A DNA stretch of 64,000 nucleotides, taken from NCBI GenBank assembly GCA_025454405.1, contig JALOON010000017.1, positions 62,001 to 126,000 of the forward strand, read 5' to 3'. Of this stretch, positions 37,698-45,935 are shown piece after piece (the first letter of the stretch is position 1; each line of letters begins with the position of its first letter). This DNA is from Oscillatoriaceae cyanobacterium Prado104 (GTDB lineage: Bacteria > Cyanobacteriota > Cyanobacteriia > Cyanobacteriales > Microcoleaceae). The notes beneath the pieces were generated by a model that saw nothing but the letters and a program-made list of their open reading frames with translations, had not been told where the DNA came from and made no database searches. Both the position numbers and the translations under genes were made by a program.

Positions 37698-38591
37698 ATG
37701 ACTAACAACCAATTGGTATTTTCAATTATTGTCCCAACCTACGATCGCCCGCAACAACTTGCTGGGTGTCTCGATTCATTTGTTAAACTAAAATATCCGC
37801 GCGATCTTTTTGAAGTAGTTGTCGTTAACGATAGCACCGAAATCTCAATAGAAACAACAGTTTCTCCCTTTCAAAATCGATTAAACTTAAAATTGCTTTC
37901 ACAACCGAATTCCGGACCGGCAACAGCTAGAAACACCGGGGCTTTTGCTGCTAAAGGCAAATTTTTCGTATTTACAGACGATGACTGTACTGTGGCTGAA
38001 GATTGGCTGCAAGCTTTAGAAAATAGGTTTTTAGAAACCCCCGACAGCTTGCTTGGAGGTCGAACTGTCAACGCGCTGCATGATAATATATATTCTGCTG
38101 CCAGCCAGCAACTAATCGACTATCTTTACAGTTATTACAATGCTATCCCCGATCGCGCGCAATTTTTCACTTCTAATAATTTTGCCCTTCCTGCTGCTGA
38201 GTTCCGCAATATCGGCGGTTTTGACACGAGTTTTTCGCTAGCTGCTGGAGAAGACAGGGAATTTTGCGAGCGGTGGTTGAATTCGGGGCGTTGTGCGGTA
38301 TACGCTCCCGAAGTTACAGTTTATCACTTTCACGAACTGACGCTGCGCAAATTTTGGTGGCAGCAGTTCAATTACGGGCGGGGTGCGTTTTTGTTTCAGC
38401 AAACTACTGCTAAACGGGTGGTCAATGCAAAAAAAATGCAGCATCCATTATTTTATCTGAATTTGTTAACTTATCCGTTTTCCCAAACATCGGGAATTAA
38501 AATGCTATTAATTGCAGCATTGTTCGTGCTTTCGCAGGTAGCAATTGCAGCCGGAATTGTGCGAGAAAAAAAATCAAAAGACGAACAGTGA
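37698..38591 (+). CDS. GT2 family glycosyltransferase
   Basis: A 297-residue inverting glycosyltransferase of the GT-A fold. The N-terminus FSIIVPTYDRPQQLAGCLDSF is diagnostic. The nucleotide/metal site is VFTDDDCTVAEDW (DxD-type). GGFDTSFSLAAGEDREFCERW holds the ED acceptor-site motif and the conserved acidic residues. The C-terminus has one hydrophobic segment (IKMLLIAALFVLSQVAIAAGIV), so the enzyme is tethered to the membrane. It follows the GT-C-like gene on the same strand; the 487-base gap filled with repeats argues against tight coupling. The donor and acceptor sugars are unknown. Confidence 0.9.
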   Translation: MTNNQLVFSIIVPTYDRPQQLAGCLDSFVKLKYPRDLFEVVVVNDSTEISIETTVSPFQNRLNLKLLSQPNSGPATARNTGAFAAKGKFFVFTDDDCTVAEDWLQALENRFLETPDSLLGGRTVNALHDNIYSAASQQLIDYLYSYYNAIPDRAQFFTSNNFALPAAEFRNIGGFDTSFSLAAGEDREFCERWLNSGRCAVYAPEVTVYHFHELTLRKFWWQQFNYGRGAFLFQQTTAKRVVNAKKMQHPLFYLNLLTYPFSQTSGIKMLLIAALFVLSQVAIAAGIVREKKSKDEQ

Positions 38592-38721: not shown

Positions 38722-39171
38722 TCAACTTTTTCTCGGCCACTTGCCAATCCATTCGCCACCGCGAAACCGCCAGCGAGGAAACAGCAGCCTCATAATTACC
38801 CAAGAAGAAAGGTAGACGGATACCCAAACTAAAGAGTAATGTTTGATAAAGGTAGGAATCTTAAAATATTCTACCTGAATGTACGGCAAGCCAAATATTT
38901 CGATCGTCGCTCCGAGAACTACTCCTTCGGCAATCGCAGCAAAAAGTTGAAAAACACCAGGCCAGTCTCTATCCCACATGAATTTTTGCAAAAAATCGTA
39001 GAGAACATCCCAGCCCAATCCTAAAAGTCCGACATAAAACAATACCCAAAAGTAAATTGGGTTGTATCGAGTTCCTAAGTAACCCAAGTAAAAAGGTAAG
39101 GAGGCTAAAACTCCAACTGTAGATAAGAGAAATATTCGAGTTTGCCAGCGACCAAATAGTGTAGGAGTCAT
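38722..39171 (-). CDS. small integral membrane protein of unknown function
   Basis: A 149-residue protein with four likely membrane segments: IFLLSTVGVLASLPFYLGYL, IYFWVLFYVGLLGLGWDVLY, VFQLFAAIAEGVVLGATIEIF and YSLVWVSVYLSSWVIMRLLF. Conserved-looking charged pieces are WDVLYDFLQKFMWDRDWP and a basic C-terminus. I do not recognise a named family. It lies downstream of the FHA-oxidoreductase gene on the same strand, with about 150 bases of CTAATGAC-type simple repeats between. Confidence 0.75.
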   Translation of the reverse strand: MTPTLFGRWQTRIFLLSTVGVLASLPFYLGYLGTRYNPIYFWVLFYVGLLGLGWDVLYDFLQKFMWDRDWPGVFQLFAAIAEGVVLGATIEIFGLPYIQVEYFKIPTFIKHYSLVWVSVYLSSWVIMRLLFPRWRFRGGEWIGKWPRKS

Positions 39172-39318
39172 GGGATTTTAGATTTTAGATTGAGAATGAG
39201 GAATGGGGAATTGGGCAGCGGGCATCGGGCATCGCGCATGGGTAATGAACAATTTATTGCTCTTTATTCTTTTTGACTAATGGCAGATGACTAATAACTA
39301 ATGACTAATGACTAATGA

Positions 39319-41370
39319 CTAAGGCGATTGATTTGTTGCCCATTTCAGCCACTGCCAAAGGGAACCGATACCTTCGAGATGGCGAATTCCGAGGGCTTTG
39401 GATCTTGCCAAGCCTTCGGCGGAACGGTGGGCGGCATATTGCAATCCTAAAAAAGTATCGACTGGTGCGTAGGGTCCTCCCAAGGTCATGATGCCGGCAG
39501 CATACATTTTAGCTCGATCGTTCCGCATTTCTACTATTTCAAAATCGTTGGCTACGTGCAGCCTGCCAAAGGGATTCAGCAGCAAGTTATAATGACTAAT
39601 TAAATCGTCTAACAAAGGATTGTCTTTAGGTTTAGCTTCCAAACCGGTCGAGTCGATAATAAAGTCGGCTTTGATTTTTTCGATGCCTTCATAATTGCCG
39701 CTTTTGATGTAAGTAACTAGCTTGCCATTTTGCTTTTCTACTCGCTCTACTTGACCGAATTTTATGGTATACCAACCTGCTTGCATTCCCGTCTTAACTA
39801 TGCGCCGCCAATCTTCACGGCTGGCGGTAGTTGTACCGCCCCAAGCTGTTAGTAATTCGTACCTTTTTAGAGGGCTGGCTGCTTCTAACATTGCCCGCAT
39901 ATCGCCGCCCCAAGTGCCTTTCGGCCAGTTGTAAGGTTGAAATTCCCACTGATTTTCTACATATCGCTGGGACAAACCAAATTTGTTACCTTGGATTTTG
40001 GGCGACTGCATTAAATGGATGACGCTAATTTGGTTGCTGGGCTGGCGAATTTCGTAAAGCCTTTGCAAGATTCTCGAAGCAACAATTCCTCGACCGCGGA
40101 CGACGACTGTACCACCTTGGCGAGATAATTGTTCGTAAACGTGTTCGTGTTCTTCGTAGGCGTTTACTACCGATCTGAAATCGCCGGTTTTGGCGCGGTA
40201 TTCTTGCAAGTCCGGCAGGAATCTGATTGCTGGATAGCCGGTAGCTATGTGGATGTATCTAGATAGTAAAAATCGGTGTTCGCTGCTAGAATTTGGTTGG
40301 GGTACGGAATAAGCGATCGCATATCTGCCGTCGTCGGTTTTGCGGATGCCTCGCACTCGGCCGTAACGCAGCATTTCATTCCAGCCGATGCGTTTTGCTT
40401 CTCTATCCATTGAAGCAAAAACATTTTGAGCTTGGGGAGTGTAAGTGTCAGCAAATACGGGTTCGGCAAAGACTTGCCAGAAATGTTTGAATCCCGAAAC
40501 AATTTGACCGGAAACGATTTCTTTTGCTGCTTCCCGCCATGCGTAGCCGGGCCATCCCCAAATATTATCGGGACAGGAATCGGAACCCGATCGAATTCTT
40601 TCGTGACCGGGAATTTGCGAATTGCGGCAAAGTTTTTGATACCGTCCGTAGGGCTTGCTTTCTAAACTAACGATCGCGATTTGTTCGCGTTTCACTCCGC
40701 AAATTACGATCGTATCTACCCACATAAATGTCCCCATCCCGCCGCCGACTGCAGCGTAGGTTGTTTCTTCAATTTGCTTGCCTGTAGCGTGCAGTGCTTC
40801 GACGGATATTCGATCGGCCGCAAACAATCCTGGAGGCGGAAACGGTGTTAAAGTATTGGGAACGGGCGGAATTTGAGGCAGTTGAGTTTGCAGGTCGTCG
40901 GTATCTGGATTGAAAGATATCGGCGGAGATGAAACCGATCGCCCTTGCGCTTCAGCAGCTTGAGAATTGAGAATGTTAGTATTGGGATTGAAGATAATTG
41001 TAGATTCTTGATTTAAAATTTTTGTCGGATCGGATTCTGCCGTTACTAACACCCCAACTGTCACGCTGTAGGGACCGATTTGTAAGGTATCGCCGCTTGT
41101 TAATGGCTTGGTGGAGTTTTGAATTTTTTCGCCATTGACAAACGTGCCGTTGGCGCTGCGATCGGTAATTGTTATTTTCCCGCTAACCAATCCGATTAAT
41201 GCGTGAAATCGCGAAATTTCTTCGCTTCTAAATACAGCCCGAGAAACTTGCTGGCCCTCAAAATTTGTCGGCATTTGACCGATTTCCCGACCCAATGCTA
41301 CAGGAACAGTAAAAACTGGCTGCCTCATTTCTCCGGTAACTGGATCTTCCCAACTCAGTTGAATTTGCAT
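39319..41370 (-). CDS. FHA domain fused to an FAD/NAD(P)-dependent oxidoreductase
   Basis: A 683-residue fusion. Residues about 20-105 are an FHA domain (VALGREIGQMP, then SRFHALIGLVSGKITITDRSANGTFVNGEKI), which binds phosphothreonine peptides. After a Pro/Asn-rich linker, residues about 195-680 form an FAD/NAD(P)-binding oxidoreductase. The first dinucleotide motif is AVGGGMGTF, and the second Rossmann motif VVRGRGIVASRIL has the GxGxxxS pattern; FIIDSTGLEAKPKDNP closes the FAD site. It most resembles flavin monooxygenase-like or pyridine nucleotide-disulfide proteins, without a redox CxxxxC. The start ATG 41370 has GAGG 6 bases upstream; GTG 41382 is an alternative. A separate FHA-zinc-ribbon gene lies upstream on the same strand. 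Phosphorylation-dependent control of the enzyme is inference. Confidence 0.85.
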   Translation of the reverse strand: MQIQLSWEDPVTGEMRQPVFTVPVALGREIGQMPTNFEGQQVSRAVFRSEEISRFHALIGLVSGKITITDRSANGTFVNGEKIQNSTKPLTSGDTLQIGPYSVTVGVLVTAESDPTKILNQESTIIFNPNTNILNSQAAEAQGRSVSSPPISFNPDTDDLQTQLPQIPPVPNTLTPFPPPGLFAADRISVEALHATGKQIEETTYAAVGGGMGTFMWVDTIVICGVKREQIAIVSLESKPYGRYQKLCRNSQIPGHERIRSGSDSCPDNIWGWPGYAWREAAKEIVSGQIVSGFKHFWQVFAEPVFADTYTPQAQNVFASMDREAKRIGWNEMLRYGRVRGIRKTDDGRYAIAYSVPQPNSSSEHRFLLSRYIHIATGYPAIRFLPDLQEYRAKTGDFRSVVNAYEEHEHVYEQLSRQGGTVVVRGRGIVASRILQRLYEIRQPSNQISVIHLMQSPKIQGNKFGLSQRYVENQWEFQPYNWPKGTWGGDMRAMLEAASPLKRYELLTAWGGTTTASREDWRRIVKTGMQAGWYTIKFGQVERVEKQNGKLVTYIKSGNYEGIEKIKADFIIDSTGLEAKPKDNPLLDDLISHYNLLLNPFGRLHVANDFEIVEMRNDRAKMYAAGIMTLGGPYAPVDTFLGLQYAAHRSAEGLARSKALGIRHLEGIGSLWQWLKWATNQSP

Positions 41371-41396
41371 GGATTCCCTCACAACTCCTCCTCTTA

Positions 41397-41592
41397 ACAG
41401 TTGACAGTTGGTAAGGAGTTTTGAGTTGTGAATTTTGAGTTGTGAGTTAAAGACTGTTCTTTATTCACGCACTCAAAACTTAAAACTCAGAACTTCCCCT
41501 GGTTAGGAGTTTTGAGTTGTGAATTTTGAGTTGTGAGTTAAAGACTGTTCTTTATTCACGCACTCAAAACTTAAAACTCAGAACTTTCAAAA
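41397..41592. repeat. GAGTTTTGAGTT family, tandem double copy
   Basis: Two nearly identical units, each with GGAGTTTTGAGTTGTGAA, TTGTGAGTTAAAGACTGTTC, then TTATTCACGCACTCAAAAC and CTCAGAACTT. It lies between the two FHA genes, so those are probably not tightly co-translated. Confidence 0.85.
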
Positions 41593-41614
41593 CCGCGCTA
41601 TTAACTATCAAGTA

Positions 41615-42154
41615 TCAACTTTTCGCCTGTTTCAATACTTCCGATTCTCCAGACTGCATTGCTTTGCCGCAGTGGGGGCAAAACAGTCCCAAATAATTGT
41701 AGGGCAAAATGTGACCGCTAGGGCATTTGACTCCGTAAACTGGCCGATCGGAAACTTGGTTGATTTGCTCTGCTTCTATTGGCTCGATCGCCCCAATTTT
41801 TAAAGCTATTTTTCCCATTTGAATTTGACTTCCCGTGTTGATGCTTGCTGCTCCTTCCAAAACTTTTTGACCGTCAACAATTATCGGGTTGCGTTTGGCG
41901 GCCGGTCGATCGCGCGTCAAGTTCCGCACCCAGAAATTATTCGTGTTAGTATTCAGAAAGATTTCCGCATGCAAGCGAGACAAACTGCTTTCGGTCTCGC
42001 TTGGTACCAAGTCGCAATGTTCTTTCGATCGTCCGATGCGAATTGCGCCCGGACATTTAGTAGTTTGCACGGAAGTAAAGGTTTGCGATCGCTCTCGCCC
42101 CCCTTCCATCCATTCCAGTGTTAACTTATACATAATAGGCTGGATAACCGGCAT
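41615..42154 (-). CDS. FHA domain protein with C-terminal zinc ribbon
   Basis: A protein of about 172-179 residues. The FHA domain spans most of it (IRIGRSKEHCDLVPSE, SLSRLHAEIFLN, FWVRNLTRDRPAAKRNPIIVDGQKV, with conserved Gly-Arg, Ser and Asn positions). The C-terminus is a zinc ribbon, CPSGHILPYNYLGLFCPHCG. The start is ATG 42154 or, in frame, ATG 42133 (MYKLTLEWMEGG). In other cyanobacteria, small FHA-zinc-ribbon proteins occur near Ser/Thr kinases or forkhead-associated regulatory genes; no kinase lies here. It precedes the FHA-oxidoreductase gene on the same strand, so the two may read the same phosphorylation signal. That link is inference. Confidence 0.85.
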   Translation of the reverse strand: MPVIQPIMYKLTLEWMEGGRERSQTFTSVQTTKCPGAIRIGRSKEHCDLVPSETESSLSRLHAEIFLNTNTNNFWVRNLTRDRPAAKRNPIIVDGQKVLEGAASINTGSQIQMGKIALKIGAIEPIEAEQINQVSDRPVYGVKCPSGHILPYNYLGLFCPHCGKAMQSGESEVLKQAKS

Positions 42155-44093: not shown

Positions 44094-45836
44094 CTACGAA
44101 GATTTTCGCAAATCAATTTGCCGCACTACTGTTAATGCGGAATAAGAAACACCAGCAGTTCCTTCTCCCGGATGGGTAGAATCTCCAACTAACCACAGGT
44201 TTTTAATCGGTGTGCGATTGGCAAAGCCAAAAGGTCCGAATGTCGGTATTCGCTGTCCGATCCCGCCCACAATTCCTTTATCTCTCGCTGTAAAGCGGGC
44301 AAATGTGCGCGGTGTAGCAGCTTCTTTGTGTACGATGTTCTCTGGCGCTAAATCGAAATATTCGCTCAAACGATCGATCGCACCTACACTGTATTTGTGT
44401 TTCAATCCTTCATAATCATCGCAATTCCACCACTTGCGAGTATCGGTAAATGATGAAGCAATAATTGTTGCCATTCCCTCCGGTGCTCTGCCATCTCCCG
44501 GATGGCTGACGGAAACAAATAACGAATTGTTTTCACCAATCTCGCCGTCGTAATCGTAAAGAAATTGCAAGTGTGGCGGACAATTTGCCGGAATTGCTGT
44601 TGCTTTCACTCCCAAATAGATTACAAATGCACCGGATGCGGGCGGCAGTTTATCTACTCGATATTTGTAGCCTGCCATTCGCTCTGGAAGTCGGTCTGTT
44701 TTTGCTAAATCTTCGTTTATTGTGCTATAATTTGCTGTTGAATTGTCTGCTAATATTGCGTTCGATCGCCCGCTATTAATCTCGGACACGGGCTGGTTTA
44801 ATAGTTCCCCGATTTGCGATCTAGATTTCGGCGAAGGGACTCCTACAAGTTCCTTGTCAATTGACTGGACTCGATCGAATGCCCGAGCTGACAGCAATTG
44901 TACTAAATTTTGCGCTGTGACATTAGCAATAATATGTTCGGCGGTTTCTGTCCAAACTTCCCCGGTTTTTTGACTGCGAATTACAACACCAGTTGCTTTG
45001 CCATTTTTGGTGACAATTCTTTCTACTGTATGCCGCAGCAATATTTTACCGCCATCGCGCTCGATCGACTCTACCAGTCGATCGCTCAATACCTGCATGC
45101 TTCCTTGTAAATGATACAATCCCTGCGGTTCTTGCGAAACTCCTAAAGCTGTCGCCGCGTAAAGCAATGCTGTTGCTTCAGCATCAACTTGAGAATACAG
45201 TTTTAACTGCAAATCCAAAAAAGTTCGCAACCGCAAATTGTCGCCCAATCCGTACAGTCGCAACGCATCGCCGACTGTCATGAAAGTGAAGGGCAATGTA
45301 ATTAAAGTATCGGGGCGGACTGCTTTTGTTAGCTGCCAGAAATCCCAGAGATTTCTCGGCGGCAGCACCGGATCTCGCTCTTGAAATTTCCAACTCACTT
45401 TAAATAAAGTAGATAATAACTGCCAAAAAGGTTCGCTGCCGGGAAATTGCTGCTGTCTTTCTTGCTGCCATTTTTGCGGATCTCGCCAAACATTAATCGG
45501 TGTTGTTTCTCCCGGCAAAAATACCGCACAAGCCGGATCGCAGGGCATCGCGGCGGGAATTTCGATGTTTAATTCTGAGAAAATCCGGTGGTGAATGCCT
45601 CCGGGCTCCAATCCCGCAACTTGGGTAGCGCCGACATCGAAGGTAAAGCCTTTGCGCTTGAAGGTGGAGGCGCATCCTCCTGGGATAAGTGCCTGTTCTA
45701 AAACTAACACTCGGTATCCCCTGCGAGCTAACAATGCTGCTGCTGTCAGCCCCCCGATTCCTGCGCCGATTGCGACGATGCGGGCTTTTCTAGGAGCTGC
45801 TGCGGGTTGGCTGTGAGGGGTGCGATCGATCGGCAT
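44094..45836 (-). CDS. crtD: carotenoid desaturase of the CrtD (C-3',4' desaturase) type
   Basis: An FAD-dependent phytoene-desaturase-family enzyme. The N-terminal dinucleotide motif is VAIGAGIGGLTAAALLARRGYRV; GGCASTFKRKGFTFDVGATQVAGLEPGG follows and the C-terminus is NLWLVGDSTHPGEGTAGVSYSALTV. These segments match my recollection of cyanobacterial CrtD proteins, which introduce the 3',4' double bond on the way to myxoxanthophyll-type carotenoids. Compared with that recollection there is an extra segment of about 65-70 residues, Ser/Asn/Asp-rich, at roughly 44690-44900 between QNLVQLLS and GYKYRVDKLPPASG. The start is ATG 45836 (MPIDRTPHS) or ATG 45875. A sister desaturase or isomerase role (CrtH/CrtI) cannot be fully excluded. 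Confidence 0.82.
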   Translation of the reverse strand: MPIDRTPHSQPAAAPRKARIVAIGAGIGGLTAAALLARRGYRVLVLEQALIPGGCASTFKRKGFTFDVGATQVAGLEPGGIHHRIFSELNIEIPAAMPCDPACAVFLPGETTPINVWRDPQKWQQERQQQFPGSEPFWQLLSTLFKVSWKFQERDPVLPPRNLWDFWQLTKAVRPDTLITLPFTFMTVGDALRLYGLGDNLRLRTFLDLQLKLYSQVDAEATALLYAATALGVSQEPQGLYHLQGSMQVLSDRLVESIERDGGKILLRHTVERIVTKNGKATGVVIRSQKTGEVWTETAEHIIANVTAQNLVQLLSARAFDRVQSIDKELVGVPSPKSRSQIGELLNQPVSEINSGRSNAILADNSTANYSTINEDLAKTDRLPERMAGYKYRVDKLPPASGAFVIYLGVKATAIPANCPPHLQFLYDYDGEIGENNSLFVSVSHPGDGRAPEGMATIIASSFTDTRKWWNCDDYEGLKHKYSVGAIDRLSEYFDLAPENIVHKEAATPRTFARFTARDKGIVGGIGQRIPTFGPFGFANRTPIKNLWLVGDSTHPGEGTAGVSYSALTVVRQIDLRKSS

Positions 45837-45935
45837 GATTAATTTACTGCAACATTTCTTAATATTATGCTGCATAACAATAAAATTGTCTAAAATACTG
45901 TACGCTGATGCTCAGCTTAAATAAAAAAATTACTC

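Follow-up and report, generated by a model that had tools for sequence, protein, structure and literature searches.

Does an FHA domain joined to a flavin enzyme in one polypeptide, with a second FHA protein and a small membrane protein encoded alongside, mark a redox system under the control of Ser/Thr kinases? The question is raised by a cassette of three minus-strand genes in the window, which is the whole stretch of 64,000 nucleotides of Oscillatoriaceae cyanobacterium Prado104 analysed here. FHAZ (41615..42154, 179 aa) encodes an FHA domain with a putative C-terminal zinc ribbon, FUS (39319..41382, 687 aa from the GTG at 41382) the FHA-flavoenzyme fusion, and MEM (38722..39171, 149 aa) a membrane protein with four predicted helices. 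For FUS, the ATG at 41370 (683 aa) is the likelier start because the similarity of relatives begins there, and its residues are counted from this ATG. The MEM reading frame lies just beyond the interval 39319-42154 in which the sequence-only reading had placed its module.

The FHA domain of FUS (41041..41370, minus strand, residues 1-110) matched the Pfam FHA family (PF00498) with an E-value of 1.6e-12 and 48.1 bits, and that of FHAZ (41813..42043, minus strand) with 4e-9 and 37.2 bits, the curated cut-off being 20.7. All 41 FUS relatives contained the domain (Pfam, E<=1; best 1.8e-16). The canonical phosphothreonine-contact residues of FHA domains are Gly-Arg, Ser and Asn, and there is a structural His besides. 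In FUS, G27, S53, H56 and G75 were conserved in 41/41 sequences, and R28 and N74 in 40/41. In FHAZ, G41 R42, S59, H62, N78 and N89 were kept in 36/36 aligned sequences, with Asn-Pro instead of Asn-Gly. The key residues, on which the sequence-only reading depended, are thus intact across both families, and the two domains are putative phosphothreonine readers.

Behind the FHA domain of FUS follows a linker (40852..41040, minus strand, residues 111-173), which had low model confidence, is probably disordered and contains two FNPxT motifs; an F[NS]PxT motif was present in 87/115 FUS linkers. The zinc-ribbon part of FHAZ (41666..41725, minus strand) contains C144, C159 and C162, with H148 near the replaced second Cys. 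Among the aligned FHAZ proteins, C144 and C159 were found in 36/36, C162 in 35/36 and C146 in 30/36, the window copy being without C146, and the zinc-ribbon Pfam matches of the window FHAZ fell under the cut-off.

The rest of FUS (39322..40833, minus strand, residues 180-683) is predicted to be a flavoenzyme domain of the two-dinucleotide-binding type, judging from the model and its fold matches. It contains an FAD-type GxGxG motif (40732..40746, minus strand), of which G209, G211 and G213 were invariant in 41/41 relatives, and an NAD(P)-type GxGIVAS motif (40075..40095, minus strand, residues 426-432), which was invariant in the alignment. Neither Pfam nor NCBIfam (E<=1 in both) gave a match for the enzyme half of the window FUS. 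The best non-FHA Pfam matches among the 41 relatives were all weak, namely Trp_halogenase (E 0.01, 5 members), LSDAT_prok (0.016), FAD_oxidored (0.036, 9 members) and Pyr_redox_2 (0.045, 4 members). No SidA/PvdA/IucD sequence model was among the 15 Pfam families matched by the 41 FUS proteins (E<=1), and none was matched in NCBIfam (E<=1) by the window FUS or by the enzyme part of the Nonomuraea relative described below. PADLOC anti-phage models gave no match at E<=0.1 for FUS, FHAZ, MEM or the Nonomuraea enzyme.

The predicted FUS model had a mean pLDDT of 80, and residues ~198-668 resembled flavoproteins. In the Foldseek search the best match was SidA (3.4e-16), with 519 chains at E<=0.001; TM-scores by target to the SidA/PvdA/KtzI class were 0.62-0.73 among the Foldseek matches listed. 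Structure comparison gave Z-scores of 19.1-23.4 among the 50 matches listed (YpdA, PvdA, FMO and TrxR-type), with 23.4 for the reductase YpdA and 21.8 for the monooxygenase PvdA. Its modelled fold puts the C-terminal half of FUS among the two-dinucleotide flavoproteins, close to enzymes of the SidA/PvdA and YpdA/FMO types, and from motif and fold we infer that it binds FAD and NAD(P)H. The fusion of an FHA domain to an FAD/NAD(P) enzyme, as proposed in the sequence-only reading, therefore holds by domain match, motifs and predicted fold. The CxxC of thioredoxin reductases was not found in the alignment of 41 FUS proteins, in which Cys reached >=40% of rows only in columns 248, 266, 351 and 486, and identification as a thioredoxin reductase was ruled out on this ground. 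Since this CxxC is absent, the enzyme is most likely monooxygenase-like and NAD(P)H-dependent, with the reaction class standing between reductase and monooxygenase because the fold is as near to YpdA as to PvdA.

Known systems resemble the cassette only in part. The N-hydroxylating monooxygenases SidA, PvdA and KtzI, which were the top Foldseek matches, appear to share the two-dinucleotide FAD/NADPH fold with FUS, and the likeness extends to an ATGY stretch, which we take to be typical of N-hydroxylating flavoprotein monooxygenases. However, identity to them is just 10-16%, and FUS has no Pfam or NCBIfam match to the class; unlike them it carries an N-terminal FHA domain and has a conserved membrane partner, and by eye no siderophore-type gene was present among its conserved neighbour clusters. 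Enzymes of the TrxR, YpdA (Bdr) and ferredoxin-NADP reductase type have a fold similar to that of FUS over the same range of Z-scores, but FUS differs in its FHA domain and membrane partner besides the missing CxxC. Other cyanobacterial FHA proteins comprise FHA-GGDEF-EAL proteins, FHA with one helix beside an MscS-type protein, and kinase-FHA proteins; FUS-type FHA domains were found in loci L188-L192 and L194-L196, and an FHAZ-type FHA domain in the kinase of L202. Their outputs are different, and no flavoenzyme was found in those inspected (Pfam on L188, L195 and L202). OdhI and GarA are FHA proteins under Ser/Thr kinase control which act on a metabolic enzyme, according to PMC8546545; there the FHA domain is a separate protein working in trans, whereas in FUS it is on the same chain as the enzyme. 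A full-text literature search, with most subscription papers outside its coverage, revealed no such fusion in titles or abstract openings.

Among 386 sampled genomes of the phylum, full-length FUS was found in 61 and MEM in 61, and both in 60, so the pairing is not due to chance. In 36/40 fetched loci FHAZ preceded FUS on the same strand, in line with the stand-alone FHA gene that had been noticed there, and MEM lay within 35/40 loci, downstream on the same strand in 32/40. The neighbours are therefore conserved across cyanobacteria. MEM was also present where unlinked to FUS (e.g. genomes G068 and G262). The only genome with MEM and without FUS (G385) has a MEM interrupted by stops, and one genome (G278) contains FUS and FHAZ with no detectable MEM. 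No MEM was found in the fetched stretch of 33/80 named loci, several of which end at contig ends. The FHAZ match was missing from six FUS genomes, and a seventh (G087) has one weak match elsewhere. FUS and MEM were jointly missing inside genera and families that otherwise carry both. One clade of the same 20/47 rows appeared in the FUS tree (support 100/99) and in the MEM tree, a quick search (SH-aLRT 98), and because of this shared clade the cassette appears to have been duplicated as one. Linkage, co-occurrence and co-duplication were thus observed, and by these comparisons the three genes make up one functional unit.

The unit does not extend further. A wider conserved operon was ruled out, the next commonest neighbour clusters occurring in 19/41 and 12/41 loci only; by eye they presumably resemble endonuclease V and SGNH hydrolase. 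The GT2 gene at 37698 had ORF matches in 3/41 loci including the window, and the PBP gene and the flavoprotein at 44094-45875 were found at the window only among the 41 loci. No kinase or phosphatase was among the conserved neighbour clusters (41 loci); the genome itself contains 71 kinase-domain matches over the cut-off. A genome-contig scan revealed 297 FUS relatives, and the best 80 of 297 all had cyanobacterial titles, including Calothrix sp. PCC 7103 and Tychonema bourrellyi; the two scan patterns were made from cyanobacterial sequences, and spread beyond the phylum is known through Nonomuraea alone. One genome (G255) contains an in-frame FUS-MEM chimera lacking the last ~130 FUS residues, and has another, complete FUS as well (L072). 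The chimera was not counted as Rosetta-stone proof, as its FUS part is incomplete and may be decaying.

Searching the plasmid collection with FUS and with MEM gave one and the same single record, from Nonomuraea (Actinomycetota), the two matches being adjacent. The Nonomuraea enzyme is 38% identical to FUS residues 193-683 (E 1e-88) and has no FHA domain; its MEM homologue was detected by tblastn over the first 86 residues of MEM (E 7e-6) and by profile (105 bits). The two genes are start-stop coupled with a TTGA overlap. Among the 119 columns invariant in the 41 cyanobacterial FUS proteins, 83 are also kept in the Nonomuraea enzyme, many of them outside both dinucleotide motifs; a few fall in the N-terminus, which is not homologous, and agree by chance, and C266 is not retained. 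No phage record matched the Nonomuraea enzyme, and no copy was confirmed in viral contigs when these were scanned with a pattern derived from this one protein. By sequence comparison, then, the enzyme and MEM pair exists in a second phylum with no FHA on the enzyme, and since it does, enzyme and MEM would be the core pair, while FHA looks like an add-on, a separable control part. The tree is unrooted with a very long Nonomuraea branch, and FHA gain in cyanobacteria and loss in the Nonomuraea line both fit it. Of the earlier interpretation, the FAD/NAD(P) enzyme is borne out by fold and motifs, and the small module with a downstream membrane protein by co-occurrence, congruent trees and the second phylum; control by phosphorylation stays a conjecture, no kinase gene being a conserved neighbour. 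The pair without FHA on the enzyme could not be seen from the window sequence alone.

In MEM, the charges (K+R/D+E) are 2.0/0 at the N-terminus, 3.9/0.3 at the C-terminus and 0.2/0.3 in the first loop, with balanced charges in loops 2 and 3, and this pattern suggests that both termini lie on the cytosolic side. T2 of the T2-x-x-L5 motif is invariant in 35/35 aligned cyanobacterial MEMs and is Ile in the FHA-less Nonomuraea pair, with which PTLxGRxQTR of the N-terminus is common. The invariant N-terminus as proof of FHA docking was weakened, because it is largely kept where the enzyme has no FHA. Pfam matches of the 35 members were weak and mutually inconsistent: DUF3267 (0.0098, 16 members), UbiA (0.01, 1) and DUF6587 (0.011, 6). 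The best weak match of the Nonomuraea MEM was HdeD (E 0.021). With the predicted MEM model, Foldseek gave 4 matches at E<=10 and 0 at E<=0.001, and the best structural match was VIA (Z 4.0); in these searches MEM matches no known fold.

We consider it probable that the cassette encodes a MEM-assisted, membrane-side, NAD(P)H-dependent FAD enzyme which is placed or switched by FHA-phosphothreonine contacts. The enzyme would act on the cytosolic membrane face through MEM, which may anchor it, supply a lipid-phase substrate or accept the product. The FUS FHA would read phosphothreonine on MEM, the FUS linker, a kinase or an outside protein, and this reading would switch enzyme placement or activity; from the sequence we infer that a kinase could steer the reaction in this way. 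FHAZ would be a second reader, perhaps with a bridging or competing role, and some lineages manage without it. More tentatively, and with less expectation that it will hold, enzyme and MEM might jointly modify a membrane-dissolved substrate, with phosphothreonine on T2-x-x-L5 of MEM or on F[NS]PxT of the FUS linker docking the enzyme on MEM.

Conserved linkage could be inherited synteny without function, as the genomes are related and part of the linkage is inherited. This is very improbable, considering that MEM accompanies FUS even when unlinked, that the two are absent together within genera and families otherwise carrying them and share one duplication, and that the pair recurs in Actinomycetota. 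It is also improbable that FUS is a pseudoenzyme, a flavin/nucleotide redox sensor signalling through MEM; it has no known substrate, no sequence family and a long linker, but the 83/119 invariant columns kept in Nonomuraea reach well beyond the dinucleotide motifs. A reductase that takes electrons from NAD(P)H and hands them on by way of FAD, either to MEM or to a MEM-bound quinone, with no oxygen chemistry, deserves more weight and is still unlikely. The top Z-score belongs to a reductase, and an enzyme with a small four-helix membrane partner suits an electron entry site; against it, FUS has no CxxC, and a bis-His haem in MEM is unlikely because the cyanobacterial alignment has one invariant His (H111), which is Met in Nonomuraea; a quinone site is conceivable all the same.

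The FHA domain, for its part, could act phosphate-free, by offering a contact surface or serving as a fixed scaffold. Unphosphorylated OdhI/GarA acts on 2-oxoglutarate dehydrogenase, as stated in PMC8546545, and by this precedent, with no phosphosite known for the cassette, such a role is conceivable, although we hold it to be rather unlikely. The phosphothreonine-contact residues are kept in FUS and FHAZ, which would be needless for a phospho-independent surface, but their weight is reduced as OdhI and GarA retain theirs too and use both modes.

Under the preferred reading of a membrane-side enzyme with FHA control, a flavoenzyme with a covalently attached FHA domain and a conserved membrane partner would link kinase signalling directly to redox chemistry, while in OdhI/GarA, the best-studied bacterial cases, the FHA protein has to reach its metabolic enzyme from outside. 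The FHA-less Nonomuraea relative offers a natural control for the FHA contribution. As neither the enzyme half nor MEM matches a curated family well, the cassette marks a redox activity of an unnamed family kept in many cyanobacteria. If the more tentative reading of joint substrate modification is true, it would represent a flavoprotein-membrane system not previously named, present in at least two phyla and kinase-controlled in cyanobacteria.

Three genes on the minus strand of the window form a cassette. In transcription order they are FHAZ (41615-42154, 179 aa), an FHA protein with a zinc ribbon, FUS (39319-41382, 687 aa from GTG), an FHA-flavoenzyme fusion, and MEM (38722-39171, 149 aa), a four-helix membrane protein. 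For FUS, the ATG at 41370 is a likelier start than the GTG at 41382. The surrounding genome comprises 8.5 Mb in 161 contigs. The FHA domains of both FUS and FHAZ exceeded the Pfam cut-off; the FUS enzyme half and MEM of the window gave no Pfam match, not even a weak one, and those of relatives gave weak matches in some proteins only (best E 0.01). The closest named FUS relatives (best 80 of 297) were cyanobacterial, including Microcoleus records. The FHAZ-FUS gap contained two 87-nt direct copies with 99% identity (41409-41586), so both genes may be partly uncoupled in Prado104. Short tandem TGACTAA-type repeats were located at the FUS-MEM junction (39274-39322).

ORF clustering of 41 loci (the window and 40 fetched) revealed FUS in 41/41, FHAZ in 36/41 and MEM in 35/41, and the next commonest clusters fell to 19 and 12. 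The sequence-only reading had proposed that the neighbours form a module with FUS, and this was supported: when the 40 fetched loci were scanned again by profile, 36 had FHAZ upstream of FUS in the same orientation, 35 had MEM somewhere in the locus and 32 had it downstream in the same orientation, and MEM was present in 60 of the 61 sampled genomes with full-length FUS. The corresponding counts were 76, 47 and 46 among 80 named loci, several of which repeat genomes of the 40-locus set or end at contig ends. Several loci showed gap 0, with MEM starting where FUS ends; in some sampled genomes (e.g. G068 and G262) MEM was distant from FUS or on a different contig. A single 735-aa ORF in genome G255 (loci L083 and L200; G255:C1:41184-43307) contained FUS to about residue 555 and the complete MEM; this frame may be decaying, because the C-terminal motifs of FUS are absent.

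In 386 genomes sampled from the phylum, any FUS match was found in 92 and full-length FUS in 61 (best E below 1e-180); the best E of the other 31 was no lower than 1e-32, and among the matches listed these covered the FHA part. MEM was found in 61 genomes and an FHAZ match in 56. The hypergeometric chance of the 60 genomes common to FUS and MEM is 2.5e-68, uncorrected for kinship. A better argument is that, within the genera (g12, g28, g16) and families (f2, f4, f8, f10) holding the pair, FUS-less genomes were also without MEM. Genome G278 had FUS and FHAZ, and no MEM was found there even by profile at E<=10. In G385, which lacks FUS, MEM was broken into pieces with stops (L199, G385:C1:3657581-3658011), and MEM seems to decay once the enzyme is lost. 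An FHAZ match was present in 55/61 FUS genomes, among them G087, whose match was weak and elsewhere; G241 had a weak match without FUS.

Contig C45 of the Prado104 genome carries a further cassette comprising FUS (57% identical), FHAZ and MEM. In FUS and MEM trees of 47 rows each from the same loci, an identical 20 rows, including the window, made one clade (support 100/99 for FUS; SH-aLRT 98 for MEM, a quick-search tree). FHAZ profile scores in the 40-locus set split in the same way: clade members scored 147-174 bits and all others at least 199. In the named set clade membership was assigned to tree rows only. From these sequence comparisons, the cassette was most likely duplicated as one unit.

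Searching 72,556 plasmid records with FUS gave a single match, an 11.85 Mb replicon of the actinomycete Nonomuraea gerenzanensis (residues 193-683, 38.2%, E 1e-88). MEM of the window likewise matched this record alone, immediately downstream of the enzyme (E 7e-6 for residues 1-86); the MEM profile scored 105 bits across its length, and the enzyme TGA overlaps the MEM TTG. The 505-aa open frame of this enzyme leaves no space for an FHA domain. It keeps 83/119 columns invariant in 41 cyanobacterial FUS, including a few chance matches in the non-homologous N-terminus, and its MEM keeps 21/29 columns invariant in 35 MEMs. Therefore the pair stands without FHA on the enzyme; this one sequence is compatible with FHA gain or loss.

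The AlphaFold model of FUS, predicted from a 41-row alignment (mean pLDDT 80, pTM 0.71), comprises FHA (1-110), a linker (111-173, pLDDT under 50) and the enzyme from about 180. With Foldseek, 519 chains of solved structures matched at E<=0.001, SidA being the top hit (3.4e-16), followed by PvdA, KtzI and dihydrolipoamide dehydrogenases. A second structure comparison (VIA) matched YpdA (Z 23.4, rmsd 3.0, 309 aligned), PvdA (Z 21.8, rmsd 3.4, 367 aligned), FMO (Z 21.1, rmsd 3.4, 314 aligned) and ferredoxin-NADP reductase (Z 20.8, rmsd 4.3, 311 aligned). By these matches the modelled enzyme domain is a two-dinucleotide flavoprotein, in agreement with the FAD/NAD(P)-type half read earlier from sequence, and the fold does not settle the reaction class. 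CxxC-forming cysteines were absent from FUS in the 41-row alignment. The linker motif F[NS]PxT was found in 87/115 distinct proteins.

The MEM model (mean pLDDT 80) has helices at 5-28, 39-64, 72-92 and 105-135 and gave no fold match by Foldseek or VIA. Its K/R-rich termini and charge-poor first loop suggest that both termini, and hence the WDxDWP loop, are cytosolic; loops 2 and 3, whose charges balance, are uninformative for topology. This putative cytosolic side, where FUS would meet MEM, harbours many of the best-conserved residues.

At the positions which we take to contact phosphothreonine, FUS keeps G27, S53, H56, G75 and N79 in 41/41 and R28 and N74 in 40/41, and FHAZ keeps G41, R42, S59, H62, N78 and N89 each in 36/36. 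The defective key residues that the sequence-only reading had named as speaking against it did not occur in either protein. FHAZ carries Asn-Pro at the position of the Asn-Gly found in most FHA domains. The FUS-type FHA also precedes GGDEF-EAL and, with one membrane helix, adjoins an MscS-type protein, and the FHAZ-type FHA was found after a kinase domain; thus FUS is one among several outputs carrying such FHA in cyanobacteria. At loci L188-L192 a long membrane protein adjoins an FHA protein that has a single hydrophobic stretch. In L188, the one scanned, the membrane protein is of MscS type and carries a DEP domain at its C-terminus; such neighbours may be a phospho-regulated channel pair. 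The Prado104 genome contained 16 FHA and 71 kinase matches over the cut-off, with three FHA matches inside 2.6 kb (G000:C130:4636-7146). No kinase was found in the conserved neighbour clusters of the 41 loci.

The cassette is real and conserved, and it is undescribed in the literature searched; passages of PMC6213207 and an abstract passage of PMC7347517 contain nothing relevant to it. Sequence comparison showed linkage, co-occurrence, apparent co-duplication, intact FHA residues and an FHA-less homologous pair, on which the proposed unit is based. At the membrane, FUS would carry out flavin chemistry for which MEM serves as an anchor or as a gate for the substrate, and FHA-phosphothreonine contact would switch the placement or activity of FUS. 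Kinase steering of a redox reaction through this phospho-reader is the proposed step. Enzyme control by an FHA protein has a precedent in OdhI/GarA, which inhibits 2-oxoglutarate dehydrogenase until phosphorylated (PMC8546545); its FHA works in trans. A survey lists FHA among the added domains of cyanobacterial kinases (PMC2176072). The cassette would represent FHA-controlled metabolism in a new form, built on an unnamed flavoenzyme-membrane pair.
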